The position numbers were made by a program, and so were the translations under genes. From assembly GCF_007362775.1 (NCBI RefSeq), contig NZ_CP041692.1, forward strand, positions 4,402,001-4,466,000: a stretch of DNA of 64,000 nucleotides. Direction: 5' to 3'. Source of the DNA: Microlunatus elymi. GTDB lineage: Bacteria > Actinomycetota > Actinomycetes > Propionibacteriales > Propionibacteriaceae. Of the stretch, positions 10,135-32,515 are shown piece after piece. How positions within the stretch are numbered: position 1 is the stretch's first letter; every line of letters starts with the position of its first letter. Below the pieces are notes generated by a model, which ran no database searches, was not told where the DNA came from, and was given only the letters and a program-made list of their open reading frames with translations.

Positions 10135-10188
10135 CCGAGTTGTCAGTCGGTGGTTTGGCTGTAGCCACAGCAGCGACTGACAACTCGG
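10135..10188. repeat. 54-nt nested palindromic repeat, copy A
   Basis: Perfect 15-bp outer arms (CCGAGTTGTCAGTCG / its complement) surround a central 12-bp palindrome TGGCTGTAGCCA at 10156-10167. It lies just after the stop of the DMT-type transporter. The minus strand is open in one frame across the whole unit. Same size and layout as copies at 31032 and 31348. Confidence 0.85.
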
Positions 10189-10193
10189 CTGAA

Positions 10194-11120
10194 TCAGCGG
10201 CGTACGAGGGCGGCGACGGCGACACCGACCAGGGTGAGGGCGCAGCCGACCAGGTCGAGGGTGGTCAGCCCCGCCCCGGTCGGGACCACCAACTCGACCA
10301 GCACCGAGCCGATCAGCTGTCCGGCGATCGCGGTCAGGCCGAGCAGCAGCACGCCGACCCAGCGCACGACGACCGCGGCGGCGGCGATGAACACCACCCC
10401 GAACAGACCGCCGAGGTAGAGCCACGGATTGCTCGGCAGCGCCGCCGGCCGGCCCTGGATCAGGACGCTGACCGCGGTGGCGATGATCAGCGCAACGGTG
10501 CCGACACCGAAGTTGATCGACGCCGCGACGATCGGTCCGCCGACCACGCCGACCCGGCCGTTGATCGCCTGCTGCCAGGCCATCCCGAAGCCGGCGATCG
10601 CCGGCAACAGCGCCAGCACGTACGCCTGGGGTCCGGCGTGACCGAGACCGCCTGCACTCGCGATCACCACCGCCAGCAAAGCGATCCCGGCGCCGAGGGC
10701 GCGGCCGACGGTGATCGGCGCCTTGCCGGCCGGCCCGAGACCGATCCGGTCGACCCACAGGCTGCTGATCAACTGTCCACCGACCACCGCGACGGTGAAG
10801 GTGGCCACTCCGATCGCGGTCACCGCCAGCCCCTGCGCGGTGACCAGGAAGGCGCCGGAGACGCCGCCCATCAGCTGCCACCAGACCAGCCGGCGATCGG
10901 CCACCGCCGCTCGTACGGCCGAAAGCCGGCCGCGGGTCCTCCGGTTGCAGGCGAGGATGATGATCAAGACCAGCAGCCCGGTGAGAAAGCTGATCAGCGC
11001 CGCCGCGATGCCGTTGTGCAGTTCGGTGCCGAGCGCGCCGTTGATCCGCGACTGGATCGCGATGAACGCGCCGGTGATGAACGCGACCACCAGACCGACC
11101 GCGCGCAGTTGGGTACGCAC
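10194..11120 (-). CDS. DMT-family membrane transporter (YdcZ/DUF606-like tandem)
   Basis: Integral membrane protein of 308 residues with about ten hydrophobic helices in two similar halves, each opening with a pattern like GAFIAIQSRINGALG and AWQQAINGRVGVVGG. This internal duplication is characteristic of the DUF606/YdcZ branch of drug/metabolite transporters. Substrate unknown. The start is a GTG at 11120, 5 bp after the prenyl-transferase stop, so the two genes form an operon. A 54-nt palindromic repeat follows its stop. Confidence 0.88.
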   Translation of the reverse strand: MRTQLRAVGLVVAFITGAFIAIQSRINGALGTELHNGIAAALISFLTGLLVLIIILACNRRTRGRLSAVRAAVADRRLVWWQLMGGVSGAFLVTAQGLAVTAIGVATFTVAVVGGQLISSLWVDRIGLGPAGKAPITVGRALGAGIALLAVVIASAGGLGHAGPQAYVLALLPAIAGFGMAWQQAINGRVGVVGGPIVAASINFGVGTVALIIATAVSVLIQGRPAALPSNPWLYLGGLFGVVFIAAAAVVVRWVGVLLLGLTAIAGQLIGSVLVELVVPTGAGLTTLDLVGCALTLVGVAVAALVRR

Positions 11121-11125
11121 GCCGG

Positions 11126-11932
11126 CTACTTGCCGAACCGGCGTTCGCGTTGGTTGTAGGCGCGCAGCGCGCGGATGAAGTCGACCTTGCGGAAGTCCGG
11201 CCAGAGGGCTTCGCAGAAGTAGAACTCGCTGTGCGCCGACTGCCACATCAGGAAGCCGGACAACCGTTGCTCGCCCGAGGTCCGGATGATCAGGTCCGGG
11301 TCGGGTTGACCCGCGGTGTAGAGGTGATCGGCGATGTTGTCGATCTCCAGGGTCTCGGCCAGCTCGCCGATCGTCATCCCCTCTTTGGCCTTCTGGGCCA
11401 GCAGCGAGCGGAAGGCGTCGCGCAGCTCGTGCCGGCCGCCGTACGAGACGGCGATGTTGATCATCATCCCGTCGACGTCGCGGGTGTCGGCCTCGGCGCG
11501 GCGGAACACCTCGGCCGACTCGGCCGGGATCAGATCCAGCGCGCCGACCGGATGCACCCGCCAGTGCCGGGACTTGGCCAGGTCGGTGACGAGCTGCTCG
11601 ATCACCTGCAACAACGGGCCGAGTTCCTCCCGATCGCGGGAGAAATTCTCGGTGGAGAGCACCCACAGGGTGACGATCGGGATCTTGACCTCGTCACACC
11701 AGGCAACGAACTCCTTCAGCTTGTCAGCGCCGGCACGGTAGCCGACCGCCAGCGGTTGGCCTGGCGCGTTCGCCCTGGCCCAGCGCCGGTTGCCGTCGGC
11801 GAGCACCGCCACGTGCTGCGGAAGTTGATCATGGTCCAGTTCGGCGATCAGCCGGTGTTCGTAGGTGGAGTAGAGCCAGCTCGACGGACGCAGGCGGTCG
11901 ACGACCTCGCGCAGCTGCTCCACTCGTGACAC
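11126..11932 (-). CDS. Short-chain Z-isoprenyl diphosphate synthase (UppS family)
   Basis: Cis-prenyltransferase of 268 residues using isopentenyl and allylic diphosphates in lipid-carrier synthesis. Family blocks are visible: VAVLADGNRRWAR (catalytic Asp, diphosphate-binding Arg), TLWVLSTENFSR, INIAVSYGGRHEL, and DLIIRTSGEQRLSGFLMWQ with FYFCEALWPDF. The substitution of LADGNRRWA for the usual MDGNGRWA matches the mycobacterial Rv1086-type short-chain synthases rather than long-chain UppS, so a (Z)-farnesyl-like product is likely. A GTG at 11932 is chosen because upstream sequence does not resemble the family. First gene of an operon with the DMT transporter. Confidence 0.92.
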   Translation of the reverse strand: MSRVEQLREVVDRLRPSSWLYSTYEHRLIAELDHDQLPQHVAVLADGNRRWARANAPGQPLAVGYRAGADKLKEFVAWCDEVKIPIVTLWVLSTENFSRDREELGPLLQVIEQLVTDLAKSRHWRVHPVGALDLIPAESAEVFRRAEADTRDVDGMMINIAVSYGGRHELRDAFRSLLAQKAKEGMTIGELAETLEIDNIADHLYTAGQPDPDLIIRTSGEQRLSGFLMWQSAHSEFYFCEALWPDFRKVDFIRALRAYNQRERRFGK

Positions 11933-11983
11933 GCACCGCAGACTACGCCGCCCGACGTCTTTCGGCGCGCTTGCCTCACCACG

Positions 11984-12062
11984 TACGGTGAAGTCCCGGT
12001 TACGGTGAAGTCCTCGCACCTGGCGATCGCTCGTGCTGAGAACCGGTCGCTCGTGTTGAGAA
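11984..12062 (+). repeat. Two pairs of short tandem direct repeats in the hlyIII leader
   Basis: TACGGTGAAGTCC occurs at 11984-11996 and 12001-12013. TCGCTCGTG(C/T)TGAGAA occurs at 12027-12042 and 12047-12062. Both pairs sit in the 145-bp gap between the divergent Z-prenyl synthase and hlyIII; they could be recent duplications or repeated regulator half-sites. Confidence 0.7.
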
Positions 12063-12076
12063 AGAAGGAGGGCCCG

Positions 12077-12793
12077 ATGGCCACCAGTCACGAACCGCAG
12101 GTGGTCCGCTCGCGCGCCTCCGCCGATGCGCGGCAGCTCCCGCCGCTGGGCGTCGAGCTGGTCAAGCCGCGGCTGCGGGGCTGGTTGCACGCGGCCATCA
12201 CCCCGCTCGCCGTCGCCGCCGGCATCGTCCTGATCTGCCTGTCACCGACCACCGCGGGCAAGGTCGGCGGAGGTGTGTTCCTGGCCGCCGCGGTGCTGCT
12301 CTTCGGCACCAGCGCGCTGTTCCACCGATTCAGTTGGGGCGTGGTCAGTTTCGGCATCCTGCGCCGGCTCGACCACTCCAACATCTACATCTTCATCGCC
12401 GCCTCGTACACACCGTTCGCACTGCTGTTGCTGGACCGGCGATCGAGCACCGTGTTGCTGTTGGTGATCTGGAGCGCGGCGGTGCTCGGGCTGCTGTTCC
12501 GTACGTTCTGGCTGAGCGCGCCGCGGTGGCTCTACACCGCGCTGTACGTGGTCACCGGCTGTGCTGCGATCGGCTGGCTGCCGCAATTCGGGTCAGCAGG
12601 CGGTCCGGCCGTGTTGACGTTGATCTTGATCGGCGGCGGCCTGTACGTGGCCGGTGCGCTGGTCTACGCGCTGCGCCGGCCGGATCCGTGGCCGCGCTGG
12701 TTCGGCTTCCATGAGGTCTTCCACTCCTGCACCATCGGCGCCTTCATCAGCCACTACATCGCCATCTCCCTGGTCAGCTACTCGGCGACCTGA
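12077..12793 (+). CDS. Hemolysin III / PAQR-family membrane protein
   Basis: Seven-helix membrane protein of 238 residues of the hemolysin III (YqfA/PAQR) family, which in eukaryotes includes metal-dependent ceramidase-like receptors. Conserved metal-site elements are present: SALFHRFSW after helix 2, LDHSNIYIFIAASYTP, and GFHEVFHSCTIGAFISHY in the last helix with two His. Despite the name, a haemolytic role is not established. The start at 12077 follows AAGGAGG. It converges on a MarR regulator with 3 bp between stops. The mycobacterial counterpart, from memory, is Rv1085c. Confidence 0.93.
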   Translation: MATSHEPQVVRSRASADARQLPPLGVELVKPRLRGWLHAAITPLAVAAGIVLICLSPTTAGKVGGGVFLAAAVLLFGTSALFHRFSWGVVSFGILRRLDHSNIYIFIAASYTPFALLLLDRRSSTVLLLVIWSAAVLGLLFRTFWLSAPRWLYTALYVVTGCAAIGWLPQFGSAGGPAVLTLILIGGGLYVAGALVYALRRPDPWPRWFGFHEVFHSCTIGAFISHYIAISLVSYSAT

Positions 12794-12796
12794 CGG

Positions 12797-13252
12797 TCAG
12801 ACCAGCCCGCCGATCCCGTCCAGCCGCAGCGCGCTGCTGCCAGCCAGTTCGGCCAGGTCGTCCTGAAGTTGCCTCATCCGGCGGCGGCCGATCCTCACCG
12901 CCCACTCGGCCTGGATCTCGTCGAAGATGCGAGCGCTCTGGATCAGCATGTCCCGCCCGCGCGCCGTCGGCTTGATGATCTTCCGCCGGGCGTCGGCGGG
13001 GTCGGCGGTCACGCTCAGATAGCCCATGCCGACCAGCCGATCGACCGACTTGGCCGCCGCCTGCTTCGACACCCCCAACGTGCGGCCGACGTCGCTCACC
13101 GTCGCGCCCGCGCCGACCGCCTGCATCACGAATCCGTGCACCGCCCGGTGATCGTGATGGCCGGCCTCATCGAGGCGGCGATGGGTCTCGTCGATCAGTT
13201 CCCGGAACGCGCCGAACAGCAGCATCGGCAGTTCGTAACCCGGCCTGTCCAT
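12797..13252 (-). CDS. MarR-family transcriptional regulator
   Basis: A 151-residue winged-helix repressor-type protein. The recognition region reads ATVSDVGRTLGVSKQAAAKSVDRLVGMGYLSVTADPADARRK, including the beta-wing DARR motif of MarR proteins. It is divergent from an AhpD-like carboxymuconolactone decarboxylase gene, and the 107-bp gap holds two similar 15-bp palindromes that are its probable operators. This suggests autoregulation plus control of the neighbour in response to an oxidant or phenolic, by analogy. Confidence 0.93.
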   Translation of the reverse strand: MDRPGYELPMLLFGAFRELIDETHRRLDEAGHHDHRAVHGFVMQAVGAGATVSDVGRTLGVSKQAAAKSVDRLVGMGYLSVTADPADARRKIIKPTARGRDMLIQSARIFDEIQAEWAVRIGRRRMRQLQDDLAELAGSSALRLDGIGGLV

Positions 13253-13287
13253 CGCGATCCTTCCGTCCTCGCTGAAAGCTCTTGAAA

Positions 13288-13337
13288 GTCAACCAGGTTG
13301 ACTGTAGCTTGCTCTCATATTCGTCAACCACGTTGTC
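13288..13337. promoter_or_regulatory. Pair of MarR-type operator palindromes
   Basis: GTCAACCAGGTTGAC at 13288-13302 is a perfect palindrome around a central base (17 bp with flanks). GTCAACCACGTTGTC at 13323-13337 is a 13/15 copy, 35 bp centre to centre. The second ends 22 bp before the ATG of the AhpD-like gene, a position suited to repression. Confidence 0.75.
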
Positions 13338-13359
13338 TTTCTTGAGCGGAGACCCAGCG

Positions 13360-13863
13360 ATGCCTTTCCCAGTCCACAGCCTCGACAGCGCACCTGAGGA
13401 GTCTCGATCCTCGATGATCGCGATGGAGCGTGAGTTCGGCGCGATCCCGGTGCCGATCGCGAAGATGGCGACCTCACCGGAACTGCTGAACGGGTTCCTG
13501 GAAGCAACCCACGCCTTCGACCGAACGACCCTGCCGCCGATCGCCCGGGAGGTGATGATCATGACCGTGGCGGTCCGCAACGGCTGCCACACCTGCGTCG
13601 GCCTGCACGCCGCGGCCCTGCGCCGACTCGGCGCCGCCGAGTTGGTCGACCCACTACGTCACGACCAGGCGCTCCAAGATCAACAACTCGACGCGATCCG
13701 GGTCTTCACCCACCGATTGATGGACCGCACCGGCGCCGTCGAGGACTCCGACCTGACCGCCTTCCTGGACGCGGGCTACACCGAGCAGAACGCCCTGGAG
13801 GTCGTCTACGGCATCGGCGCCTACACCATGTCGACCTTCGCCAACCGACTGATCGGCGCCTGA
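13360..13863 (+). CDS. Carboxymuconolactone decarboxylase / AhpD-like protein
   Basis: A 167-residue all-helical protein of the carboxymuconolactone decarboxylase family. NGCHTCVGLHAAALRR contains the AhpD-type CxxC plus His motif, indicating thiol-dependent peroxidase or disulfide-reductase chemistry rather than decarboxylation. The start at 13360 has GAGCGGAGA upstream and leaves the promoter and operators free; an in-frame ATG at 13282 would run through them. Likely controlled by the divergent MarR protein. Confidence 0.9.
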   Translation: MPFPVHSLDSAPEESRSSMIAMEREFGAIPVPIAKMATSPELLNGFLEATHAFDRTTLPPIAREVMIMTVAVRNGCHTCVGLHAAALRRLGAAELVDPLRHDQALQDQQLDAIRVFTHRLMDRTGAVEDSDLTAFLDAGYTEQNALEVVYGIGAYTMSTFANRLIGA

Positions 13864-13874
13864 GCCCCGCCCTC

Positions 13875-13912
13875 CCGACAAGGCACGCGTCACAACGCGC
13901 TATAGCGCTTCC

Positions 13913-13929
<17 letters not shown>
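13875..13929. repeat. Nested palindromic repeat, copy D (degenerate left arm)
   Basis: The right arm CGCTGACAGGTCGG and the perfect central palindrome GCGCTATAGCGC (13897-13908) match copy C in spacing. The left arm CCGACAAGGCACGCG has diverged. It sits at a convergent gene junction and overlaps the last codons and stop of the DUF255 gene. Confidence 0.7.
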
Positions 13930-15958
<2,029 letters not shown>

Positions 15959-16061
15959 GCCTCCACCCTGCCACGTCCCGTCCGACGAAGATCATGATCA
16001 CTTGACGCCCGCCCGGGTAAGTGCAAACGTGCAGGAGGTCACCGGTTGAAAGGACGGTCCC

Positions 16062-17513
16062 ATGACGGAGCGGTCATCGGATCCTGGAGCCAAGATCGTC
16101 ACCCGCGGGCCACTACGGAAGAAGCCGATCGGCCCGGCGCACTTCGAGACCGGGCTGGAAAGATCGATCGGCCTCTGGCAGTTGACCGCGATCGGGCTGG
16201 GAGCCATCATAGGCGCCGGCATCTTCGCCTTGGCCGGCACCGTGGCCAAGAACGACGCCGGTCCCGCGGTGACCATCTCCTTCGTCATCGCCGGCATCGC
16301 CAGCGCCTGCGCGGCGTTCTCGTACGCAGAATTCGGCGGCATGATCCCGCGCTCGGGGTCGGCCTACACCTACGGCTACGCGACGCTGGGTGAGGCCGTC
16401 GGCTGGTTCATCGGCTGGGACCTGCTGCTGGAGTACACCGCGATCGTGGCGGTGGTGGCGATCGGTGTTTCGCAGTACGTCGGCTACCTGTTCACCAGTT
16501 TCGGTGTGGATCTGCCGGCCTGGATGCTCGGCGCTCCGGGCACCGGGCCGGGGCATCGGATCGACCTGTTCGCGGTGATCCTGTGCATCGGAGTCGCCGC
16601 GCTGCTCAACCGCGGCATCAAGTCCGGTGCACGGACCGAGTTCTGGCTGGTGTTCATCAAGATCGCGATCGTGCTGGCGGTGATCATCGTCGGCGCCTTC
16701 TACATCAAGCCCTCGAATCTGACGCCCTACTTCCCGTACGGCTTCGGCGGCGCGGTCACCGGAGCGGCCACGGTGTTCTTCGCCGTGTTCGGTTACGACG
16801 CGATGAGTACGGCGGCGGAGGAGTCCAAGAGTGCGGAGCGGAATCTGCCCAAGGCGGTGATGCTGTCGCTCGCCATCGCCATGGTGCTGTACCTGCTGGC
16901 GGCTACCGTGCTGACCGGCATCCAGAAGTACACCGACCTTTCGGACTCGGCGGCCTTCGCGTTCGCGTTCGAGGCGGTCGGCCAGCCCGTGTTCGCCAAG
17001 GTGGTCGCCGTCGGCGCGATCATCGGCATCTTCACCGTGCTGTTCTCGTTCACGCTGGGGGCGTCCCGGGTCTGGTTCGCGATGAGTCGGGACGGGCTGT
17101 TGCCACGGTGGTTCAGTCACACCAACGCCAAGCGATCACCGGACCGGCCGGTGTGGATCGTCGGCATCGTGGCCGCCGGCATCGGCGGATTCGTGCCGAT
17201 CGGCAGCGCGGCCGAACTCACCAACATCGGCATCCTGCTGGCGTTCGTGGTGGTGTCGGTCTCGGTGATCGTGTTGCGGTACCGGCGACCGGAGGTGCCG
17301 CGGACGTTCCGCCTGCCGTTCATGCCGGTGACGCCGATCCTGGGCATCATCTTCTCGATCTGGCTGGTCACCAAGCTGCAGCCGATCACCTGGCTACGCT
17401 TCGTGATCTGGTTCATCATCGGCGCGCTGATCTACATCTTCTACAGCTACCGGCACTCCCGGCTCGCCCACGGCGAGGTGGTCGACGAGGAACCGCCGAC
17501 ACCACGAAGTTGA
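16062..17513 (+). CDS. APC-superfamily amino acid permease (cationic amino acid transporter-like)
   Basis: A 483-residue protein with about twelve transmembrane helices. The signature IGLWQLTAIGLGAIIGAGIFALAG in helix 1 and AAFSYAEFGGMIPRSGSAYTYGY in helix 3 identify an APC permease of the CAT/YfnA branch, with FFAVFGYDAMSTAAEES in helix 6. It probably imports a basic or neutral amino acid with protons; substrate cannot be deduced. The ATG at 16062 follows GAAAGGACG. Monocistronic. Confidence 0.92.
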   Translation: MTERSSDPGAKIVTRGPLRKKPIGPAHFETGLERSIGLWQLTAIGLGAIIGAGIFALAGTVAKNDAGPAVTISFVIAGIASACAAFSYAEFGGMIPRSGSAYTYGYATLGEAVGWFIGWDLLLEYTAIVAVVAIGVSQYVGYLFTSFGVDLPAWMLGAPGTGPGHRIDLFAVILCIGVAALLNRGIKSGARTEFWLVFIKIAIVLAVIIVGAFYIKPSNLTPYFPYGFGGAVTGAATVFFAVFGYDAMSTAAEESKSAERNLPKAVMLSLAIAMVLYLLAATVLTGIQKYTDLSDSAAFAFAFEAVGQPVFAKVVAVGAIIGIFTVLFSFTLGASRVWFAMSRDGLLPRWFSHTNAKRSPDRPVWIVGIVAAGIGGFVPIGSAAELTNIGILLAFVVVSVSVIVLRYRRPEVPRTFRLPFMPVTPILGIIFSIWLVTKLQPITWLRFVIWFIIGALIYIFYSYRHSRLAHGEVVDEEPPTPRS

Positions 17514-17523
17514 TCTTCGCGGG

Positions 17524-17892
17524 TCAGCTGGGCCGACGTAGCCGGCCGGCGAGCTTCATCGGCGCCTGGATGCAGTAGGAGTCGGTGAGCAGCTCGCGCA
17601 ACTCACGCCAGTCCGTCTCCCGGTCCAGCACCAGACCGACCACGTTGCTGCCCCAGTCGGTCTTGAAGTACGGCGGCCCGAGATGCTCGAAGGCGGCGAC
17701 CTCGTCCGGCTCGGCCCGAAAGGTGATCCGGAAAAGCTGATCCTCGCCGCCGAACACGTGCGCGACCGTCTGCTGACGAATCCGCCAGCAGACGCCGATC
17801 CAGGCATCCTGCTCGATGCACTCGGGAAACCTGTCGATCACGGTACGGATCCGGCGCAGCAGAGCAGCGGGGACCTCGGGACGTTCAGCCAC
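17524..17892 (-). CDS. MmcQ/YjbR-family protein
   Basis: A 122-residue protein with the YjbR fold pattern: RRIRTVIDRFPECIEQDAW near the start, QQTVAHVFGGEDQLFRITF in the middle, and VVGLVLDRETDWRELRELLTDSYCIQAP at the end. Family members have a DNA-binding-like fold but no established role. The GTG at 17892 is chosen since upstream codons do not fit the family; the exact start is uncertain. Confidence 0.8.
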   Translation of the reverse strand: MAERPEVPAALLRRIRTVIDRFPECIEQDAWIGVCWRIRQQTVAHVFGGEDQLFRITFRAEPDEVAAFEHLGPPYFKTDWGSNVVGLVLDRETDWRELRELLTDSYCIQAPMKLAGRLRRPS

Positions 17893-17960
17893 GAAGACCA
17901 GTCTGACCGCGACCACTGACAGCGCGACCGGATGAGCAAAGACCGAACACGTGCCCCTGG

Positions 17961-19025
17961 CTAGGCGGCCTGCTGTTCGTGGTCGAGTTGGATGTTGAAG
18001 AGGGCTTGGACACAGTTGTTGAGGTCGAAGCGTTCGCCGTACTGTTTCGGCCAGATGACCTTGGCTTCGGGATCGCCGAGGTGGGTGACGTGATCGACGT
18101 TGGCGGGTTGCTCGCGGGTCAGCTCGCGCAGTAGCCGCTCGGCGGTGCGGGCGCGCCAGCCGGTGGTGAGGACGGGTTCGCCGTCGGGCATGGTGAATTG
18201 CCAATGGTCGGCGGATTCTTCGCCGATCTGGCCGGATTCTCTGCTGCTGGTTCGGTCGCTGATGGTGATTCCGCCTTCGTGGCAGGTGGTGTGGTGGAAT
18301 CGGCAGAGCAGGATCAGGTTCGCCAGGTCGGTCTTGCCGCCGCGGGCCCAGCTGATGATGTGGTGGGCTTCCAGGTGCCGACGCTGATGGCAGCCCGGGA
18401 ATTGGCAGCTGGCTCGGTCGCGGATCATCAGTGCTCGGCGTTGGGGCTTGGAGACCAGGCGGCGAGAGCGGCCGAGTGCGAGCGGGGTGCCGTGTCGGTC
18501 CAGGATGATGCCCAGAACGTTGGCAGTGCAGGTCAGACGTTCTGCGGTGGCCGGCTCGATCGCGCCGATCCCGCGGATGGTGCACACCTGAGCCGGCATC
18601 GCCGATGCCGGAAATCCTGCCTGGCCGGGAGTTCCCGACGTTCCCGCGGGAACGTCCGGAGCAGTCGCGCCTGCAGCGGCGAGTTGTTCGGCGCCGACCT
18701 CGAACGCGGCTCCCAGCGTCGGCATCTGACGCAGCGCTCGCGCGACCCGAACATGCTCGCGCGCCACGCCGGGCGACATCGAACAGGTGAACGCTACCCA
18801 GTGCGCCACCGACTTCACGCCACTGAGGATCCCCAGACCGCCACCGGCATCGAACCGACCGATCAACTCGATCAATCGAAACGAAGCCTGCGCCTCCTGC
18901 GCAGCCCGAGCGCAGATCTGTGCCGACAACGCATCCAACTGTGTCGGCGTCAACCGCTCCGCCGGACCCGCCTCGGCCGCCGTTGTCCCGTTCGTTGTTG
19001 TCCCGAACGTTGTTGTCATTGTCAT
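17961..19025 (-). CDS. DUF222/HNH endonuclease-domain protein, shortened
   Basis: A 354-residue protein of the actinobacterial DUF222-HNH family. The N-terminal part (RLIELIGRFDAGGGLGILSGVKSVAHWVAF, REHVRVARALRQMPTLGAAF) is standard DUF222. The C-terminal HNH domain has RDRASCQFPGCHQRRHLEAHHIISWARGG and LCRFHH. Compared with family members I would expect a further 80-120 residues between LGAAF and the ATAERL segment; a low-complexity Ala/Gly/Pro stretch stands there instead. This suggests an internal deletion, though the nuclease domain remains intact. Such genes are often multicopy, and biological role is unknown. Confidence 0.85.
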   Translation of the reverse strand: MTMTTTFGTTTNGTTAAEAGPAERLTPTQLDALSAQICARAAQEAQASFRLIELIGRFDAGGGLGILSGVKSVAHWVAFTCSMSPGVAREHVRVARALRQMPTLGAAFEVGAEQLAAAGATAPDVPAGTSGTPGQAGFPASAMPAQVCTIRGIGAIEPATAERLTCTANVLGIILDRHGTPLALGRSRRLVSKPQRRALMIRDRASCQFPGCHQRRHLEAHHIISWARGGKTDLANLILLCRFHHTTCHEGGITISDRTSSRESGQIGEESADHWQFTMPDGEPVLTTGWRARTAERLLRELTREQPANVDHVTHLGDPEAKVIWPKQYGERFDLNNCVQALFNIQLDHEQQAA

Positions 19026-21800: not shown

Positions 21801-21802
21801 CT

Positions 21803-23852: not shown

Positions 23853-23896
23853 TCACAGTCGAGACGTCAGCGACGATCGCGATTAGGGTCGGGACC

Positions 23897-24571
23897 ATGC
23901 GTATCGCGATCGTCGGCGGCCACGGCAAGGTGGCCCTCCAACTGCATCCCATCCTGGTTCGCCTCGGCCACACGCCCGTGGCGTTGGTCCGGTCGGAGGA
24001 CTATCGCGCTGAGTTGGAAGGACTGGGCGCTGAGGTCCGGCTGCTCGACATCGAGCGGCAGGAGGCCGGCGACTTCGCGGCCGCGTTCGACGGCTGTGAC
24101 GCGGTCGTCTTCTCTGCCGGCGGCGGCCCCGACGGCAACCAGGAACGCAAGCAGACAGTGGATCTGGAGGGTTCGCTGAAGTCGATCCAGGGTGCCAAGG
24201 AGGCCGGCATCCGCCGCTTCCTGCAGGTGTCCGCGATCAACGTGGACGAGCCGCTGCCGACCGACACCGAACCGGTCTGGCGGGCCTATGTCGAGGCCAA
24301 GCGGGATGCCGATGCGGCCTTGCGAATCAGTGATCTGGACTGGACCATCATCCGGCCGGGAACGCTGACCGACGGAGCTGGTACGGGTCTGGTTGCGCTC
24401 GGCCGGGACCTCACCCGCGGTGAGATCCCGCGCACCGATGTCGCCACCGTGCTGGCGATCTCGTTGGACAACGACGGCACCATCGGGCGCCAGTGGGACC
24501 TGATCGGCGGCGACACCCCGATCGCCGACGCGATCGAGGCCGCGGTCGGTAGGGTCGGGAAACGTGGATGA
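23897..24571 (+). CDS. NAD(P)-binding atypical short-chain dehydrogenase (YwnB-like)
   Basis: A 224-residue Rossmann-fold protein with the dinucleotide-binding start MRIAIVGGHGKVALQL, the second-strand VALVRSEDYRAELEG, and FLQVSAINVD with WRAYVEAKRDADAALR in place of the classical YxxxK site. SDLDWTIIRPGTLTDGAGTG is typical of atypical SDR/NmrA-like proteins. Substrate unknown. It overlaps the following phosphoesterase by 8 bp, so the two are translationally coupled. Confidence 0.9.
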   Translation: MRIAIVGGHGKVALQLHPILVRLGHTPVALVRSEDYRAELEGLGAEVRLLDIERQEAGDFAAAFDGCDAVVFSAGGGPDGNQERKQTVDLEGSLKSIQGAKEAGIRRFLQVSAINVDEPLPTDTEPVWRAYVEAKRDADAALRISDLDWTIIRPGTLTDGAGTGLVALGRDLTRGEIPRTDVATVLAISLDNDGTIGRQWDLIGGDTPIADAIEAAVGRVGKRG

Positions 24572-25796
24572 TCATGATCGGGAAGAGACGTCGCTGTCCC
24601 TGCCGGAACTGGTTGATTCACCGCCGGTGGTGATGAGCCCCCGACCCGACGGCGTCGAGGTCGTGTGGTCGGTCACCGCACCGGCCCGCGGTTGGGTCGA
24701 GTGGGTGCCGACGACTGACGATCCAAGATCACAGCGCACCGTCGATCGCCGAGTTGTTGATCTTGACCGGTACGGATTCGTGCCGCAGGGTTCGCGGATC
24801 ATCCGGGTCCGCGTCGACGGCTGGCAGCCGGGCACCGAGTACCTGATCCGTACGGTGACCGAGGCGGCCCGCGACGATCGCCGAGTCGAGTCGGAGTGGA
24901 AGCGGGTGCGGACGCTGGATCCGGACGCGTCGCAGTCAAGCTTCGTGGTGTGGAACGACACTCACCAGCGCGAGGAAACCCTACGCAGGTTGGACGATGC
25001 CTCACCCAAGGCCGACCTTTGGGTCTGGAACGGTGACGTCTGCAACAACTGGAACGACCCGGACGAGATTGCACCGACGATCTTGTCGCCCGGTGGACGT
25101 GACGCCACCGACGGTCGCCCGCTCGCCTTCGTCTGCGGCAATCACGATGTCCGCGGACCGTGGGCCTACCGGCTCCGCGAGGTGATCGCAACGCCGGATG
25201 ATCGGCCCTATTACGCGGTTCGCAGCGGACCGATCGCGGCGATCTTCCTGAACACCGGCGAGGACAAGCCCGATGATCACCCGACATTCGAGGGCCGGCC
25301 CGCTTTCGAACAACTCCGCCGGGTGCAGGCCGACTGGCTCGCCGAGCAGATTCGCCAACCCGGGTTCGCCGATGCTCCGTACCGGATCGTCTTCTGTCAC
25401 ATGCCGTTGCGCTGGTTGGACGAGCCGATCCTCACCGACGCGGACTACGCCGACGGCGAATTCGATCACTACTGCCGGACCGGGCGCGACCTGTGGCACG
25501 ACTCGTTGGTCGCCTGGGGTACCCAGCTGGTGATCTCCGGCCACACTCACCAATCGGCCTGGTTCCCTGCCACCGAAGAGTTTCCGTACGCCCAGCTCAC
25601 CGGTGGCGCCCCGGCTTCCTGGGCTGCGACCTGGATCGAGGGCGACGCCGACTCCGAACGGCTCTCCGTGATCACCCGCCGACTCGACGGCTCGGTCCTG
25701 CACGAAACCTCGGTCCCGCCGCTGACCTTCCCGGTGATCCGGCTGGGCCGCGCCGTCACCTCGAAGGATGTCGCCGACGCCCTCGACGATGAATGA
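24564..25796 (+). CDS. Calcineurin-like metallophosphoesterase
   Basis: A 410-residue protein. After an N-terminal fibronectin-like beta domain (about residues 20-115, including GVEVVWSVTAPARGWVEW) comes a phosphoesterase domain with the ordered metal motifs FVVWNDTHQ, VWNGDVCNN, VCGNHDVRG, VFCHMPLRW and VISGHTHQSAWF. No signal peptide, so probably cytoplasmic. The GTG start at 24564 overlaps the preceding SDR gene. The arrangement resembles purple-acid-phosphatase-like bacterial proteins; substrate unknown. Confidence 0.9.
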   Translation: MDDHDREETSLSLPELVDSPPVVMSPRPDGVEVVWSVTAPARGWVEWVPTTDDPRSQRTVDRRVVDLDRYGFVPQGSRIIRVRVDGWQPGTEYLIRTVTEAARDDRRVESEWKRVRTLDPDASQSSFVVWNDTHQREETLRRLDDASPKADLWVWNGDVCNNWNDPDEIAPTILSPGGRDATDGRPLAFVCGNHDVRGPWAYRLREVIATPDDRPYYAVRSGPIAAIFLNTGEDKPDDHPTFEGRPAFEQLRRVQADWLAEQIRQPGFADAPYRIVFCHMPLRWLDEPILTDADYADGEFDHYCRTGRDLWHDSLVAWGTQLVISGHTHQSAWFPATEEFPYAQLTGGAPASWAATWIEGDADSERLSVITRRLDGSVLHETSVPPLTFPVIRLGRAVTSKDVADALDDE

Positions 25797-25869
25797 GTTG
25801 GTCCGGCTTGCGTCCGGAATGTGATCCTCGATTCCCAGATTTCGGGCAATCGGGAGCAAACTGAGCCTC

Positions 25870-27720
25870 GTGTCTCGACCGCTACGCTCCGCAACCTCCA
25901 CCACTGGACGCAACATGGCCGGTGCTCGCGCGCTCTGGCGCGCGACCGGGATGACCGACGGCGACTTCGGCAAGCCGATCGTCGCAGTCGCCAACTCGTT
26001 CACCGAGTTCGTGCCCGGCCACGTACATCTGAGGAATCTCGGCAAGTTGGTCGCCGATTCAGTACGCGATGCCGGCGGCGTGGCCAAGGAATTCAACACC
26101 ATCGCGGTCGACGACGGCATCGCGATGGGGCACGGCGGGATGCTCTACTCGCTGCCCAGCCGGGAGTTGATCGCCGACGCGGTCGAATACATGGTGCAGG
26201 CGCACTGCGCGGACGCGCTGGTGTGCATCTCCAACTGCGACAAGATCACCCCCGGCATGTTGCTGGCTGCGCTCCGATTGAACATCCCGACGATCTTCGT
26301 CTCCGGTGGTCCGATGGAAGCGGGCAAGATCATCGCCAGCAATGGAGTCGCCCGCCCCAAGCTGGACCTGATCGACGCCATGATCGCCTCCGCCGACGAG
26401 AAGGTCAGTGATCAAGAACTCAGCCAGATCGAGCAGTCGGCCTGCCCGACCTGCGGATCCTGTTCGGGCATGTTCACCGCCAACTCGATGAACTGCCTGA
26501 CCGAGGCGATCGGGCTTGCCCTTGCCGGCAACGGATCCACGCTGGCCACCCATGCCGCCCGCAGGCAGCTCTTCGTCGACGCGGGCACCAAGATCGTTGA
26601 TCTTGCTCGGCGTTACTACGACGACGAGGACGATCGTGTGCTGCCGCGCTCGATCGCCGATCGGCGCTCGTTCGAGAACGCGTTCGCGCTGGACGTCGCG
26701 ATGGGCGGCTCCACCAACACCGTGCTGCACCTGCTGGCCGCAGCCCGCGAGGCCGAGCTGGACTTCTCGGTCTCCGACATCGACGCCGTCTCCCGCAGGG
26801 TGCCCTGCCTGAGCAAGGTCGCGCCGAACACGCAGAAGTACCACATGGAGGACGTCCACCGGGCCGGCGGCATCCCCGCCATCCTGGGCGAACTCAACCG
26901 GGCCGGCTTGCTCAACAACCAGGTGCACAGGGTGGACGCACCGAGCCTGGACAGCTGGCTGGCCGAGTGGGACATTCGCAGCGGGACCGCATCCGAGCGT
27001 GCGCTGGAGCTCTACCACGCAGCACCGGGCGGCGTTCGGACCACCGAACCGTTCTCCACCGAGAATCGCTGGGAGTCGCTGGACACCGATGCCGCGAACG
27101 GTTGCATCCGCGATGTTGATCATGCCTACTCCACCGACGGCGGCTTGTGCATCCTGTTCGGGAACATCGCCGTCGACGGCTGCGTGGTGAAGACCGCCGG
27201 CGTACCCGACAACTGCCTCACCTTCACCGGCGAGGCGAAGGTGTTCGAGTCGCAGGAGGCTGCTGTTGAAGGGATCCTGGCCGGCGAGGTCAAGGAGGGC
27301 CACGTCGTGGTCATCCGGTACGAGGGCCCCAAGGGCGGGCCGGGCATGCAGGAGATGCTCTACCCCACCTCGTTCCTGAAGGGCCGCGGACTCGGCCAGG
27401 CCTGTGCGTTGATCACCGACGGCCGCTTCTCCGGCGGCACCAGCGGTCTGTCGATCGGGCACATCTCCCCCGAGGCCGCCGGCGGCGGGTTGATCGCCCT
27501 GGTCACCGACGGCGACAAGATCGCCATCGACATCCCGCAGCGCAAGATCGAACTGCTGGTCGGCGAGGACGTGCTGGCCGATCGCCGGATCGCCGAGGAG
27601 AAGCGGGAACGCCCGTACACCCCGCAGAATCGGGACCGGGTCGTCTCCCGGGCGCTCAAGGCGTACGCGTTGATGGCGACCGCCGCCTCCGACGGCGCGT
27701 ACCGCCGCGTCCCGGAGTGA
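25870..27720 (+). CDS. ilvD: Dihydroxy-acid dehydratase
   Basis: Catalyses dehydration of 2,3-dihydroxy-3-methylbutanoate/pentanoate in valine and isoleucine synthesis, using an Fe-S cluster and Mg2+. The 616-residue protein has [23 protein letters not shown], the cluster ligands in [11 protein letters not shown] and [17 protein letters not shown], and the C-terminal [21 protein letters not shown]. The GTG at 25870 gives SRPLRSAT... followed by the conserved [15 protein letters not shown]. No ilv neighbours are present, so it is a stand-alone gene here. Confidence 0.96.
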
Positions 27721-27837
27721 GGCTGAATCCGCGCCGAGTTTCGCCTCGATCACGACACGGCAGAAACCAACACGCCTCACAGTCAAAAGGTGAATAGACT
27801 CCCGACCGTTTGAACTCAACGCGGACGGGAGATCACA

Positions 27838-28785
27838 GTGACCGCAACGACGCCGTCAGTCGCCGCAGACCGGCGACCACCCGACGGGGAGCGAGTTGGC
27901 TCACGCCGCAGACTCAGGCGGCGGGAGTACGCGCTCTTTCTGGCCTTCATCGCGCCGAACGTGATCTTGTTGGCCGTGTTCGCGTTCTGGCCGGTTGTCT
28001 ACAACGCGTACCTGTCGCTGACCAGCTGGAATCTGCTGTCCCAGACCAAACCGTTCGTCTGGTTCGCCAACTACGTGGACATGTTCACCGATCCCGAGTT
28101 CGGCATGGTCGTGCTGCGGACGATCATCTTCTCCGGTGGTGTGGTGATCATCTCGATCACCCTCGGCCTGATGGTCGCGCTGTTGCTTGATCAAAAACTC
28201 CGGGCCCGCAACCTGGTCCGGACGTTCTCGTTCGCTCCGTACATCGTCTCCGGTGCGGCGATCGGCACCATCTGGCTCTACATCTTCGACCCCAACTACG
28301 GCCTGCTGAAGTCGATCCTGGGCGTCTTCGGGATCACGTCGCCGGCCTGGATGACCGACTCCGCCTGGGCGTTGCCGGGCTTGATCATCGTCTACGTGTG
28401 GAAGACCACCGGGTTCGTCGCGGTCGTCTATCTTGCCGGCCTGCAAGGGCTTCCGACCGACCTGTACGAGGCCGCACGGATCGACCGGGCGGGCCCGGTC
28501 ACCACCTTCTTCCGGATCTCGCTGCCGCTGTTGTCGCCGGTCACCTTCTTCGTCGTGGTGACGTCGATCATCGGCAGCTTCCAGGCCTTCGACGTGATCG
28601 CGGTGATGACCGACGGCGGTCCGGGCACCGCGACCACCACCCTGTCCTGGTACATCTATCAACAGGCGTTCCGGGCCTTCGACGCCGGACACGCCGGAGC
28701 TGGAGCCATGATCATGTTCGTGCTGCTGGTCCTGATCACCAGTGCGCAGGCACGCTTCACCAGGAATCGGGTGCATTACCAGTGA
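27838..28785 (+). CDS. Carbohydrate ABC transporter permease (MalF/UgpA type)
   Basis: A 315-residue inner-membrane permease with six helices (ALFLAFIAPNVILLAVFAFW first) and the cytoplasmic EAA loop GLPTDLYEAARIDRAGPVTTFFRISLPLLSP, which docks an ATPase. First gene of a three-gene operon with a second permease (4-bp overlap) and a lipoprotein receptor. No ATPase gene is present, as in actinobacterial sugar importers that share a common MsiK-type ATPase. The GTG at 27838 follows GGGAG. Confidence 0.94.
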   Translation: MTATTPSVAADRRPPDGERVGSRRRLRRREYALFLAFIAPNVILLAVFAFWPVVYNAYLSLTSWNLLSQTKPFVWFANYVDMFTDPEFGMVVLRTIIFSGGVVIISITLGLMVALLLDQKLRARNLVRTFSFAPYIVSGAAIGTIWLYIFDPNYGLLKSILGVFGITSPAWMTDSAWALPGLIIVYVWKTTGFVAVVYLAGLQGLPTDLYEAARIDRAGPVTTFFRISLPLLSPVTFFVVVTSIIGSFQAFDVIAVMTDGGPGTATTTLSWYIYQQAFRAFDAGHAGAGAMIMFVLLVLITSAQARFTRNRVHYQ

Positions 28786-29693
28786 CCGCACCGGCAACAC
28801 TTCCCCAGCTCAATCAGCCGACCAGCGAGCGGACCGGACGCGGCTCCGCCGTCGGTGGCAGAAGTCGTCCCGGTCGGGTGATCGGACGCATCCTGCTCTA
28901 TCTCGGTTTGATCTTGGTCGGGCTGGCGTCGATCATCCCGGTCTACTGGCTGCTCAGCTCGTCGGTGAAACCGACCGCGGAGATCTTCGTCTTCCCGCCG
29001 AAGTGGATCCCGAGTTCCCTGCACTGGCAGAACTTCGTCGACGCGTGGAATTCGGCGCCGTTCGGCCGGATGTACATCAACTCGCTGGTGGTCACCATTG
29101 TCGGCGCCGTCGGTGAGATCTGCGTGGCGATCCTGTCCTCGTACGCGTTCGTCTTCCTGCGCTTCCCGAAGAAGAACTTGATCTTCGGCATCTTTCTGGC
29201 CGCGATGATGGTGCCCGGCACCGTCGTCCTGCTGCCGAACTACATGACGGTCGCCCAGCTCGGCTGGGTGAACAGCTACGCCGGCATCATCGTGCCGGGA
29301 TTCGGCAGCGTGTTCGCGATGTTCCTGCTCCGCCAGCACATGATGACGCTGCCGAAGGAGATCAACGAGGCCGCCCGGGTGGACGGCGCCGGACACCTGC
29401 GGACGCTGTGGACAATCGTGCTGCCGCTGTCCAAGCCGATGGTGGTGACCGTGATGATCGTCGCCCTGGTGACCAAGTGGAACGACTTCATCTGGCCGTT
29501 GATCGTGACCAACACCGACAACATGCGGGTGCTGCCGGTCGGCTTGCTGATGTTGAAGAGCGACGAGGGATACGTGAACTGGGGCGCGGTGATGGCCGCC
29601 ACCTGTTTCGTGGTGATCCCGGTGCTGATCGTCTTCTTCTTCGCCCAGCGGCACATCGTCGCCGGCCTGACCCAAGGAGCGACGAAGGGATGA
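28782..29693 (+). CDS. Carbohydrate ABC transporter permease (MalG/UgpE type)
   Basis: A 303-residue partner permease with six helices (ILLYLGLILVGLASIIPVYW first) and the EAA loop LPKEINEAARVDGAGHLRTLWTIVLPLSKP. The GTG start at 28782 overlaps the TGA of the upstream permease, so translation is coupled. An upstream open extension to 28398 is only out-of-frame overlap with the first permease. The two permeases form the membrane channel of a CUT1-type sugar importer. Confidence 0.94.
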   Translation: MTAPATLPQLNQPTSERTGRGSAVGGRSRPGRVIGRILLYLGLILVGLASIIPVYWLLSSSVKPTAEIFVFPPKWIPSSLHWQNFVDAWNSAPFGRMYINSLVVTIVGAVGEICVAILSSYAFVFLRFPKKNLIFGIFLAAMMVPGTVVLLPNYMTVAQLGWVNSYAGIIVPGFGSVFAMFLLRQHMMTLPKEINEAARVDGAGHLRTLWTIVLPLSKPMVVTVMIVALVTKWNDFIWPLIVTNTDNMRVLPVGLLMLKSDEGYVNWGAVMAATCFVVIPVLIVFFFAQRHIVAGLTQGATKG

Positions 29694-31030
29694 GCAAGAT
29701 CAACAAGTTCGGCCGGCGCGGCCTGCTCGGGCTGATGGGCGGTGCCGCGGCGGCGATGGCGACCGGCTGCAGCCGGGACTTCAGTCAGGTCGGCGGCAGC
29801 GCGGTGCCCGGCAAGTTCGGCAATCGGGTGCACCTGATCGCGTGGCACTCGTATGGCGGCTCGACCGGCAAGGCGTTGCAGACCATCGTCGACGCCTTCA
29901 ACAACTCCCAGTCCGACGTCTACGTGGAGACGCAGTTCCAGGGCAGTTACGAGGACACCCAGCAGAAACTGTCGGCAACGATCATCGCCCGGCAGATCCC
30001 GGACCTGACGGTGTTGAGCGAGGTGACCTGGCGGGCGATGCATCTGGCCGACGCGCTGGAGCCGTTGAACGACTACTTCGACGACGAGTTGCAGCCCAGC
30101 GACTACATCGACCAGTTCATCGAGGAGGGCACCGTCAAGGGCAAGATCTGGTGGCTGCCGTTCGCTCGTTCGACGCCGTTGTTCTACTTCAACAAGAGTG
30201 TGTTCACCAAGGCCGGGTTGCCCGGCCGGTCGCCGGAGACCTGGGACGAGTTCGCCGAGTGGGCGCCGGCGATCAAGAAGGTCACTGTCGGCAAGAGCAA
30301 CGTGATGCCGCTAGCCCTGGACGGTGGCTACTCGGCCTGGTACTTCCAGGGCAACATGTGGCAGTGGAAGGCGCACTACTCCGACGGGCTGGACATCCAA
30401 CTCGATTCACCCGAAGGCATCGCCGCGGCAACCTGGATGGCCGACTTCATCCGCAAACACAAGGCCGCCTACCTGTCGGCGAAGAGTTCGATCGACTTCG
30501 GCAACCAGGCCGCGGCCGCCGCTCTGATGAGCACCGCAAGCCTGGCGCAGACCACCGAACTCGCCAAGGCGAGCAAATTTGATCTTGGTACCGGGTTCAT
30601 GCCCAAGCATGATCAATTCGGCTGCCCGACCGGTGGCTCCGGCTGGGGAATCATGACCAAGGCCACCACCGAGCGCAAGCAGGCAGCGTTCGAGTTCCTG
30701 AAGTTCCTCGGCCGGCCGGAGAACTCGGCGTCCTGGACGATGGCGACCGGGTACCTGCCGATCGTGAAGAAGGCGCAGCAGGATCCGCGCCTGGTCGAGC
30801 TGGTGAACAAGGATCCGAACTTCTCCACCTCGCTGCGCCAGCTGCCGAAGACGAAGACCCAGGACCTGGCCCGGTTGGTGATCCCCGACGCCAGCAACTT
30901 CATGGACGAGTCGTTCGAGACGCTCTACTCGTCCAACATCGCGCCGGAGAAGTCATTCGCCCAACTGGCCAAGAAAATGCGCCGCAAGGCAGATCTGCTG
31001 GAAGACAACTTCCGCGCCCACTACGAGTAA
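29690..31030 (+). CDS. Extracellular sugar-binding lipoprotein of ABC importer
   Basis: A 446-residue family-1 solute-binding protein. The N-terminus has FGRRGLLGLMGGAAAAMATGCS, a lipoprotein signal with lipobox ATGC and a twin-arginine pair that could direct Tat export. The mature part shows VDAFNNSQSDVYVETQFQGSYED, PDLTVLSEVTWRAM and WWLPFARSTPLFYFNKSVF, resembling UgpB-like receptors for oligosaccharides or glycerophosphodiesters. Its ATG overlaps the permease stop by 4 bp. A palindromic repeat follows the stop and a sulfatase converges on it. Confidence 0.93.
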   Translation: MSKINKFGRRGLLGLMGGAAAAMATGCSRDFSQVGGSAVPGKFGNRVHLIAWHSYGGSTGKALQTIVDAFNNSQSDVYVETQFQGSYEDTQQKLSATIIARQIPDLTVLSEVTWRAMHLADALEPLNDYFDDELQPSDYIDQFIEEGTVKGKIWWLPFARSTPLFYFNKSVFTKAGLPGRSPETWDEFAEWAPAIKKVTVGKSNVMPLALDGGYSAWYFQGNMWQWKAHYSDGLDIQLDSPEGIAAATWMADFIRKHKAAYLSAKSSIDFGNQAAAAALMSTASLAQTTELAKASKFDLGTGFMPKHDQFGCPTGGSGWGIMTKATTERKQAAFEFLKFLGRPENSASWTMATGYLPIVKKAQQDPRLVELVNKDPNFSTSLRQLPKTKTQDLARLVIPDASNFMDESFETLYSSNIAPEKSFAQLAKKMRRKADLLEDNFRAHYE

Positions 31031-31031
31031 T

Positions 31032-31085
31032 CCGAGTTGTCAGTCGCTGGTTTGGCTATAGGCACACCAGCGACTGACAAGTCGG
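31032..31085. repeat. 54-nt nested palindromic repeat, copy B
   Basis: Outer arms of 19 nt (CCGAGTTGTCAGTCGCTGG and its near complement, 18/19 paired) surround the core TGGCTATAGGCA at 31053-31064. It fills the 57-bp gap between the convergent sugar-receptor and sulfatase stops and could act as a two-way terminator. Confidence 0.85.
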
Positions 31086-31087
31086 GG

Positions 31088-32515
31088 TCAGAGGCCGACC
31101 TCGGTGCGCCATTCCTCATGCAGGGTACGAAGTTGGTCGACACGTTCCGGACGCTCGGCAGCCAGATCATTTTGCTCCGAGGGGTCGGACGCGAGGTCGG
31201 TGAGCCGAAGCCCGGCACCCATCGGGGCGTGCTCGTAGCTGGCCAGATGCTGCACGTTGGTCGAATCCGCATCGACCCAGCTGAGCTTCCAGTCGCCCGA
31301 TCGCACCGCCCACTGGAAGCCGCACTCCCAGTGCAGGGCCTCGTGCCCTGAGTTGTCAGCGTCAGGTTGCGCTATAGCGCCTTCTGCCGCTGACAAGTCG
31401 GTGGGCAGGAGGGGGTTGCCGTCGCAGTGTTGCCAGGTGGACGGGTCGGCACCGGCCGCCGCCAGCGCGGTTGGGTAGATGTCCATGCTGGAGACCAACC
31501 CGGAGTGGGTCGAACCGGCGGCGACCCGGCCCGGCCAGCGAACCAGGAACGGCACCCGGATGCCGCCCTCCCAGACGGTGTACTTGGTGCCCCGCAACGG
31601 AGTGTTGTCGCCGAAGTTGCAGGTGGAACCGCCGTTGTCGGTCAGGTAGATGATCATGGTGTTCTCGGCCTGCCCGGTCCGGTCGAGATGATCAAGGAGC
31701 CGGCCGATCTCGCGGTCCATCAACTCCAGCTGAGCCAGGTAGTACTCCCGTCCGTGCGGCAGATTCGGCACGATCGCATCGTCGTACCACTCGCCGTAGC
31801 CGGTGCCCGAGTCCGGATCCCAGTCCCGGTAGGCCGGCAGCCCGCGCCGTTCCAGTTCGTCGGCGGGCAGCTGCCAGCAGAAGTTGTGTACGGCGTTGAA
31901 CGCCAGCATGCAGAAGTACGGGTCGTCGCCCGCCTCGGTGATGAAGTCGCGGGCCCTGCGGCCGAGCTCCTCGGTCAGGAATCCCTCGTACTCATAGGCA
32001 TCGTCGCCCTGCAGCAGCGGCTGCACCGCCATCGGCACCGCGGCCTCGCCGTAGTCCTGCTGTGCCGAGCGTGAGTGATGCAGGTAGTTCAGCCGTCCCA
32101 GCGACTGGCCGGCCAGCCCGTACAGAGTCTGATCGAAGCCGTGATGCGGCGGGCAGGCACGATCGCCGACGTCCTCCGATCCGTAATGCACCTTGCCGAA
32201 GTAGCCGGTGCGATATCCCTGCTGCTGCAGGGCTTCGGCAATGGTCGGCGCCCGGTCCGGATCGTCCGGCGGGAAGGATGCCGAGTCGAACCAGAGTCCG
32301 CCCCAGCGCTGTTGGTAGCGGCCGGAGATGATGCCGGCGCGCGAAGGGCTACAAATCGGGGCTGTGACGTAGGCGTCGGTGCAGGTCATTCCTTCGGCGG
32401 CGAGCCGATCCAACCCCGGCGTCTGTACGTCCGGATGAATCCCCAACGCGCTCCGGTCGGCGTAGCCGTGGTCGTCGGACAAGATCACGATGATGTTGGC
32501 AGGACCTTCAGGCAC
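31088..32515 (-). CDS. Sulfatase carrying an in-frame palindromic repeat
   Basis: About 475 residues of a type I sulfatase hydrolysing sulfate esters. The N-terminal NIIVILSDDHGYAD gives metal ligands, and APICSPSRAGIISG (Cys about 55) is the CxPSR site converted to formylglycine. Further blocks are TGYFGKVHYG, MIIYLTDNGG and LRGTKYTVWEGGIRVP. No signal peptide is evident from the chosen GTG at 32515 (GAGGAG upstream); a GTG at 32527 is also possible. Residues about 372-389 (TDLSAAEGAIAQPDADNSG region) are encoded by a 54-nt palindromic repeat inserted without breaking the frame. It converges on the sugar ABC operon, suggesting sulfated-carbohydrate use. Confidence 0.9.
   Translation of the reverse strand: MPEGPANIIVILSDDHGYADRSALGIHPDVQTPGLDRLAAEGMTCTDAYVTAPICSPSRAGIISGRYQQRWGGLWFDSASFPPDDPDRAPTIAEALQQQGYRTGYFGKVHYGSEDVGDRACPPHHGFDQTLYGLAGQSLGRLNYLHHSRSAQQDYGEAAVPMAVQPLLQGDDAYEYEGFLTEELGRRARDFITEAGDDPYFCMLAFNAVHNFCWQLPADELERRGLPAYRDWDPDSGTGYGEWYDDAIVPNLPHGREYYLAQLELMDREIGRLLDHLDRTGQAENTMIIYLTDNGGSTCNFGDNTPLRGTKYTVWEGGIRVPFLVRWPGRVAAGSTHSGLVSSMDIYPTALAAAGADPSTWQHCDGNPLLPTDLSAAEGAIAQPDADNSGHEALHWECGFQWAVRSGDWKLSWVDADSTNVQHLASYEHAPMGAGLRLTDLASDPSEQNDLAAERPERVDQLRTLHEEWRTEVGL
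31348..31401. repeat. 54-nt nested palindromic repeat, copy C, inside the sulfatase CDS
   Basis: Outer arms of 14 nt pair at 12 positions (CTGAGTTGTCAGCG / CGCTGACAAGTCGG) around the perfect core GCGCTATAGCGC at 31369-31380. The unit is 54 nt, a multiple of three, and open in the sulfatase frame; it contributes an ATA codon, rare in this DNA. Confidence 0.85.

Follow-up and report, generated by a model that had tools for sequence, protein, structure and literature searches.

In the cases that are understood, a domesticated Y1 transposase is linked to the movement of small high-copy palindromes. REPINs are reported to possess conserved ends and a spacer in which length and folding are important, with paired changes (PMC3116915), and REPs to adjoin gene 3′ ends, supply stop codons and enter genes (PMC3733652) and can reduce translation when located at most 15 nt from a stop codon (PMC12306157). 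The Rickettsia palindromic elements (RPEs), reported to be 105-146 bp long (PMC2229807), are a precedent for in-frame palindromes (PMC2229807; PMC10969869), and CRISPR repeats are the only repeats mentioned in the accessible part of PMC3534718. Here, we describe a 54-bp palindromic element, initially annotated from four copies in a window of 64,000 nucleotides (positions 4402001-4466000 of the single 5,121,194 bp contig of the host Microlunatus elymi). It is a dispersed unit of fixed length with conserved ends and lineage-specific abundance, it is present at some orthologous sites and absent from others, and some of its copies lie in frame within genes. We consider it likely to be a non-autonomous mobile palindrome with a REPIN-like way of working, probably a small mobile element which resides chiefly just past gene ends and sometimes enters genes without breaking them.

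The unit has the form CCGASTTGTCAG-N30-CTGACAASTCGG and is almost always 54 bp long. Allowing up to two mismatches, the pattern TTGTCAG-N30-CTGACAA finds 105 matches in the host genome as compared to 4 for the backwards pattern, and the longer pattern GASTTGTCAG-N30-CTGACAASTC finds 98 as compared to none for its reversal, which excludes chance. The initial annotation, which had taken the four copies for a family with conserved size and layout, thus addressed a real family with approximately 100 host copies, far more than four. When the gap was allowed to vary from 14 to 44, 72 matches were obtained in the host and 261 in M. speluncae, and 73 of the 75 sites listed by this search possess N30, one N29 and one N31; likewise, 84 of the 87 units in fetched host stretches, in which lengths of 53-55 were sought, are 54 bp long, so that the length is a genuine property of the family. 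These 87 of the approximately 100 copies form the basis of the host analyses, one site search having scored only 150 candidates. An exact scan of a contig collection provided at least 120 further stretches, referred to below as named loci, of which 80 were used in some analyses and all 120 for stop distances, gap types and strand mismatches. In the host and 80 named loci position 5 is C or G and almost never A or T. A GTAG or CGTC tag was not found at the unit ends, which have the consensus CCGASTTGTCAG; CGTC occurs solely inside subfamily a.

The 30 inner bases are free in sequence, and they pair. Among exact-end units of 80 named loci, picked by their ends and spacing alone, all 90 pair at 7-15 of their 15 inner positions, with 3.75 expected by chance. 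Three arm types are distinguished in the host (43, 20 and 21 copies, with no mixed copy among the 84); their arms differ and pairing is kept between the three. Taking all host copies together, most of positions 13-23 pair above independence (for example position 13, 0.94 vs 0.39), position 19 pairs at independence (0.58 vs 0.58), and the consensus of subfamily a is mismatched at 19/36 and 21/34. This asymmetric subfamily has no preferred direction relative to genes (12:10), and its distribution over the replichores appears uneven. Among copy pairs with two differences in five genomes (drawn from 19 of 57 copies of G040, all 32 of G041, all 24 of G042, 84 of the host and 24 of M. speluncae), 6 of 35 have both differences at paired positions as compared to 1.2 expected; these correspond to about four events, as two genomes count one event twice. 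Our reading is that palindromy is renewed at the founding of a lineage or subfamily and subsequently decays, and there is little evidence for selection on each individual copy.

By the longer pattern, copies are found in 11 of 20 Microlunatus genomes (283 in M. speluncae and 98 in the host, followed by 42, 30, 24, 15, 11, 3, 3, 1 and 1) and none in the other nine, and the exact pattern has no match in 20 genomes from other genera within the family and order. The genomes closest to the host by ResB, G006 (81%), G011 (78%) and G012 (77%), carry 0, 3 and 0 copies, and most host copies are therefore recent on that scale or have been lost in the relatives. All matches listed by the contig scan derive from Actinomycetota by title; as a lower bound, the carriers listed are Microlunatus, other Propionibacteriaceae, Propionicimonas, Nocardioidaceae, Isoptericola, Luteimicrobium, Cellulomonas and Frankiales, with single matches among those listed in Krasilnikoviella and Oerskovia and in one metagenome-assembled genome (MAG) of Geodermatophilaceae. 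Whole-genome counts in four of the genomes listed amount to 57, 32, 24 and 51, with none for the reversed pattern. Carriage by phages was considered and rejected, since seven viral-contig stretches fit the shorter end pattern and none has CCGA ends; on the viral contigs L364 and L366-L369 it is runs of CAGTTGTCAGT-like short repeats, different from the unit, which fit the end pattern. A plasmid search retrieved homologues of neighbouring genes, the unit itself not being apparent in the five matches listed. Sharing of sites by descent was likewise discarded as a rule, as, in loci of other species, two of ten matches to copy-bearing host genes end near a copy and 10 of 44 matches to other host genes do so.

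The initial suggestion of a mobilised palindromic unit finds support in this patchy copy number, in identical copies at unrelated sites, in copies located in frame and in sites of relatives that are devoid of the unit. Identical 48-mers are present at three sites on contig 1 of M. speluncae (266460, 453837 and 731786). In M. elymi, one copy encodes TDLSAAEGAIAQPDADNSG within a sulfatase gene of the window and a second in-frame copy encodes ADLSASEGAIARPDADKSD within ResB; in both proteins the frame runs through the copy and homology returns on both sides, and the copy peptide is present in none of the 23 ResB and 8 sulfatase orthologues aligned there. In one reading frame the unit is mostly free of stops: 78 of 84 host copies are open on one strand and 79 on the other, as compared to 16-19 and 0 in other frames, and in 80 named loci the figures are 66 and 68 of 89. 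It is this frame in which gene-internal copies are read, with further copies lengthening C-termini or providing the stop codon according to the gene calls. At L089:192-992 of Isoptericola luteus, two unit-like peptides directly follow one another in a single predicted protein (ELSG...PDNSR APELSG...PDNSRG), and at L070:5717-6610 of M. speluncae four units within 0.9 kb resemble a duplicated segment of approximately 530 bp.

At the rpoB-rpoC junction, a copy is located 8 nt (host, G000) and 7 nt (G011) past the rpoB stop, the two being of different arm types, and G012 has no copy there; G006 and others possess other short palindromes at this junction, as judged by eye. At the end of a glycosyltransferase gene, a copy is present in MAG Chersky_165 and absent from PROP2, with surrounding DNA 77-78% identical. 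The rpoB-rpoC junction of G016 (L314) harbours a related palindrome, CCGACTTGTC...GACAAGTCGG, of approximately 56 bp by eye and without the AG after TTGTC, which is perhaps a sister family. A second repeat, TTCCCTGAGC(T/C)TGTCGAAGGGC, occurs beside copies of the unit in M. speluncae (L132:5590-5740), and a similar sequence forms, by eye, a hairpin between rpoB and rpoC in G010 (L318). Insertion into the loops of older hairpins was considered, a case which the G012 junction resembles by eye, and was rejected, since flank complementarity does not exceed that of shuffled flanks.

Placement relative to genes was assessed with a simple codon-usage gene caller written for the analysis. The 87 host units occupy 46 tandem, 34 convergent and 2 divergent gaps and 5 intragenic positions, with 233 tandem, 81 convergent and 71 divergent gene pairs in the same stretches, so that convergent gaps are preferred (34/82 vs 81/385, p 2e-4) and divergent gaps avoided (2/82 vs 71/385, Fisher p 8e-5). 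Convergent gaps are likewise preferred in the 120 named loci (36/114 vs 131/766, p 5e-4), and divergent gaps are not avoided (18/114 vs 138/766, p 0.69). Stop distances fall within -46 to 15 nt in 105 of 114 cases in the host (median 3) and in 86 of 132 in the named loci (median 12), and a downstream start codon is often found 13-19 nt from the copy. On the strand that reads into the unit, the flanks of both ends are rich in C and poor in G over approximately 10 nt in all contexts examined, the divergent and intragenic samples being small, and host stops without a copy have no such flank; this symmetric composition makes an insertion preference more likely than a transcript signal.

In the mechanism which we propose, an enzyme acting in trans would copy the unit to new sites. 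The unit itself is a near-perfect 54-bp palindrome; its 12-bp ends (CCGASTTGTCAG) are conserved, and the inner 30 bases consist of two like halves, fixed in length and free in sequence. The enzyme would recognise the ends, and the folded hairpin may be the recognised form, since all lineages keep a palindromic interior of free sequence. Copies would persist mainly where they are harmless, directly past stop codons or in the one open frame, and as a secondary effect the hairpin, being transcribed where mRNAs end or between cistrons, may adjust mRNA decay or translation. A more specific version is put forward only tentatively: the unit could be an actinobacterial counterpart of the REPINs spreading without RAYT, with an enzyme that recognises the 54-nt hairpin, copies that are founded as matched palindromes, arms that change pairwise by lineage, and a single mostly open DLS-(11 aa)-DNS/DKS frame by which proteins are repeatedly tagged in frame. 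By search, the mover in the host genus is not a Y1 (RAYT) transposase.

Several results weigh against a mobile palindrome. A Y1 (PF01797) gene was found in none of the 20 Microlunatus genomes, the two richest in copies included, in a search whose control was positive in 5 of 14 known genomes; as the same architecture reaches approximately 100-280 copies where no Y1 gene was found, either another enzyme moves such hairpins or the link to Y1 is not general. In 30 loci from 12 low-copy genomes we noticed no longer element sharing these ends, and among 481 neighbouring genes from the fetched stretches and 80 named loci no family recurs in more than three source genomes, the most recurrent, in three, being icd and a short-chain dehydrogenase group (names by eye). 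Target-site duplications of 5-9 nt are absent from 176 copies, in which short duplications number 22 vs 13.4 expected for 2 nt, 5 vs 2.5 for 3 nt and 2 vs 0.6 for 4 nt, the excess at 2 nt being a hint only, and the strain pairs at hand are too distant to define an empty site to the base. In ResB, the host loop exceeds that of 19 of the 23 orthologues by 8-12 residues, is about equal to two and shorter than two, and the host sulfatase loop is 9-15 residues longer than in seven of eight orthologues and 3 longer than in one; as these differences are variable and smaller than the 18 residues which a clean insertion would add, and four of the 23 ResB loops are about as long or longer, the copy entered a variable loop, where no clean gain of 18 residues is seen. 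The initial statement that arms vary with pairing kept applies between the three subfamilies and is not supported within them, where Watson-Crick pairs do not exceed shuffled expectation (249 vs 250, 453 vs 465 and 228 vs 234), so that the hairpin rests on the comparison between lineages. Finally, in host tandem gaps of 40-1000 nt, 10 of 17 copies are located at most 10 nt from the upstream stop as compared to 2.6 under uniform placement (p ~5e-5 or less), and such tight placement could signify a function at gene ends; in tandem gaps of 80 named loci, 6 of 26 are within 10 nt (4.0 expected, not significant) and 15 within 15 nt (5.8 expected).

Such a function is at the centre of the strongest alternative, by which every copy would be under selection as a structured RNA at the ends of genes, acting as either a bidirectional terminator or a 3′ stability hairpin, and which we regard as unlikely. 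Copies 0-15 nt past stops, the enrichment in convergent gaps of host and named loci, the depletion of divergent gaps in the host, the fixed spacing from the stop that is kept even in long gaps of the host and the differently sequenced hairpins seen by eye at rpoB-rpoC of some relatives are in its favour. In the named loci, divergent gaps are not avoided. A T-tract past the element was not found, the 3′ flank being G-rich and T-poor by base composition, and copies reside between closely spaced tandem genes including rpoB and rpoC, often 13-19 nt ahead of starts, so that the terminator role considered in the initial annotation is weak. On the transcribed strand, G.T is not favoured over A.C among mismatches (49:38 in the host and 37:33 in 120 named loci; pooled p 0.26), as a preference for G.U in RNA would require. 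With the asymmetric subfamily unoriented relative to genes and pairing within subfamilies at shuffle level, RNA-pairing selection was rejected as the cause of arm variation. Copies within coding sequence, and the fact that few copy-bearing host genes carry a copy in loci of other species, also argue against an RNA element.

An origin of the unit as a miniature inverted-repeat transposable element (MITE), left over when a classical DDE transposon bearing these terminal repeats lost its internal part, is quite improbable: terminal inverted repeats, small size and dispersal would agree with it, but the interior is palindromic as well and not the ends alone, and neither a parent element nor a 5-9 nt duplication was encountered in the samples given above. 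A stationary site bound by a chromosome protein of two-fold symmetry, be it a regulator, a nucleoid protein or a segregation factor, with one protein reading both half-sites, is very unlikely; the halves vary independently within subfamilies, as half-sites would, and position 5 is restricted to C or G, but three host subfamilies and other arms elsewhere would require several proteins, and copies in coding sequence and the range of 0-283 copies within the genus fit mobility better. Least probable is that the unit belongs to the REPIN/REP family proper, with a Y1 transposase (RAYT) as its mover. The conserved ends, folding spacer and paired changes of REPINs (PMC3116915), the crowding of REPs past stops and their entry into genes (PMC3733652) and Y1 genes in three of nine carrier genomes outside Microlunatus agree with this reading, and against it stand the Y1-free Microlunatus genomes, five Y1 loci without a copy or half-copy within ~1.5 kb and ends without a GTAG/CGTC tag. 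The Y1 (RAYT-like) genes at L386-L390 of three carriers (G040, G041 and G043) have two recurring kinds of neighbouring gene, with the unit not nearby.

The four copies in the window (Table 1) are located where the initial annotation had placed them and have the lengths given there. Two of their four 12-bp cores are imperfect palindromes with one mismatched pair each (TGGCTGTAGCCA and TGGCTATAGGCA), and the 31348 copy begins with CTGAG and not CCGAG. A pairing scan of the window, which required at least 11 of 12 outer bases to be paired over spans of 44-67 nt, gave 54 entries, the 15 best of which are spans of the three good copies (10135, 31032 and 31348). These three were among the 18 copies from which a covariance model was built, and their scores are therefore partly by construction; the degenerate 13875 copy, outside the model and below the reach of the stricter pattern scans and the outer-pairing scan, was recovered at 30.4 bits (E 3e-7). 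DNA folding z-scores amount to -10.1 (10135), -2.5 (13875), -10.7 (31032) and -6.1 (31348).

Table 1. Copies of the palindromic element and the gene hosting the in-frame copy (window positions)
Feature	Position	Strand	Basis or remark
54-bp palindromic element, subfamily c (TCGGTGGTTTGGC arm)	10135..10188		pairing scan, covariance model
55-bp decayed copy, nearest CG-arm subfamily a by eye	13875..13929		covariance model, E 3e-7
54-bp element, subfamily c	31032..31085		pairing scan, covariance model
54-bp element, subfamily a, encodes TDLSAAEGAIAQPDADNSG	31348..31401		in frame, variable loop of sulfatase gene
sulfatase gene (PF00884), host of in-frame copy	31088..32527	-	start uncertain; longest open reading frame reaches 33025

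The 10135 copy is located 5 nt past the stop of a minus-strand YdcZ-like gene (10194-11120), in tandem with a PhoH/PIN gene. Two copies, 13875 and 31032, are indeed at convergent junctions, the minus-strand DsbH-like gene (called 13913-15958) terminating within the former and the latter occupying its junction almost wholly, 1 nt past the stop of a solute-binding-protein gene (29690-31030, plus strand) and 2 nt from the end of the minus-strand sulfatase gene. The position of the 31348 copy inside a gene, and not between genes, had been overlooked. At Rfam gathering thresholds, the window has a tRNA gene (61658-61731, minus strand) as its sole match and seven other loci gave a small RNA and a flavin mononucleotide (FMN) riboswitch, neither a family of the unit, in agreement with the initial annotation, which had recognised no named repeat family; nor was the unit recognised among the best matches in open-access literature, subscription journals being mostly uncovered.

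Gene-internal copies of the unit reveal protein loops tolerant of extra residues, and the family could serve strain typing. Its wider significance is a REPIN-like architecture at approximately 100-280 copies in genomes in which the Y1 gene family was not found.

Among small repeats of actinobacteria, MIRU of mycobacteria are intergenic repeats at stop codons in operons and are tandem and not palindromic; the unit shares their location at stops and differs from them by its palindromic nature. Integron attC sites are imperfect palindromes past stop codons with free arm sequence, as compared to which the unit forms scattered single sites of a fixed 54 bp. With MITEs such as Correia, ERIC, RUP and others it has in common that it is small, non-coding, bounded by inverted repeats and dispersed, as proposed here, by a factor in trans, whereas it has no clear target duplication and no parent transposon was noticed in the low-copy genomes. 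Like an RPE, it is a palindromic unit with an open frame that occurs in frame in conserved proteins, here ResB and a sulfatase; it is set apart from RPEs, by their description, as a unit of 54 bp which is mostly extragenic and belongs to high-GC actinobacteria. Of all known systems, it is the REPINs which the unit resembles most. With REPIN/REP-RAYT systems of Pseudomonas and enterobacteria it shares conserved ends, a foldable interior of fixed length, copy numbers in the order of 10^2, an extragenic location beside stops with some intragenic copies, and several subfamilies per genome, and it differs from them in a host genus without a Y1/RAYT gene, in ends without the GTAG/CGTC tag and in its restriction to Actinomycetota among the matches listed. 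As its working is REPIN-like and no RAYT was found in the host genus, the unit is classed as a variant and not as a member.

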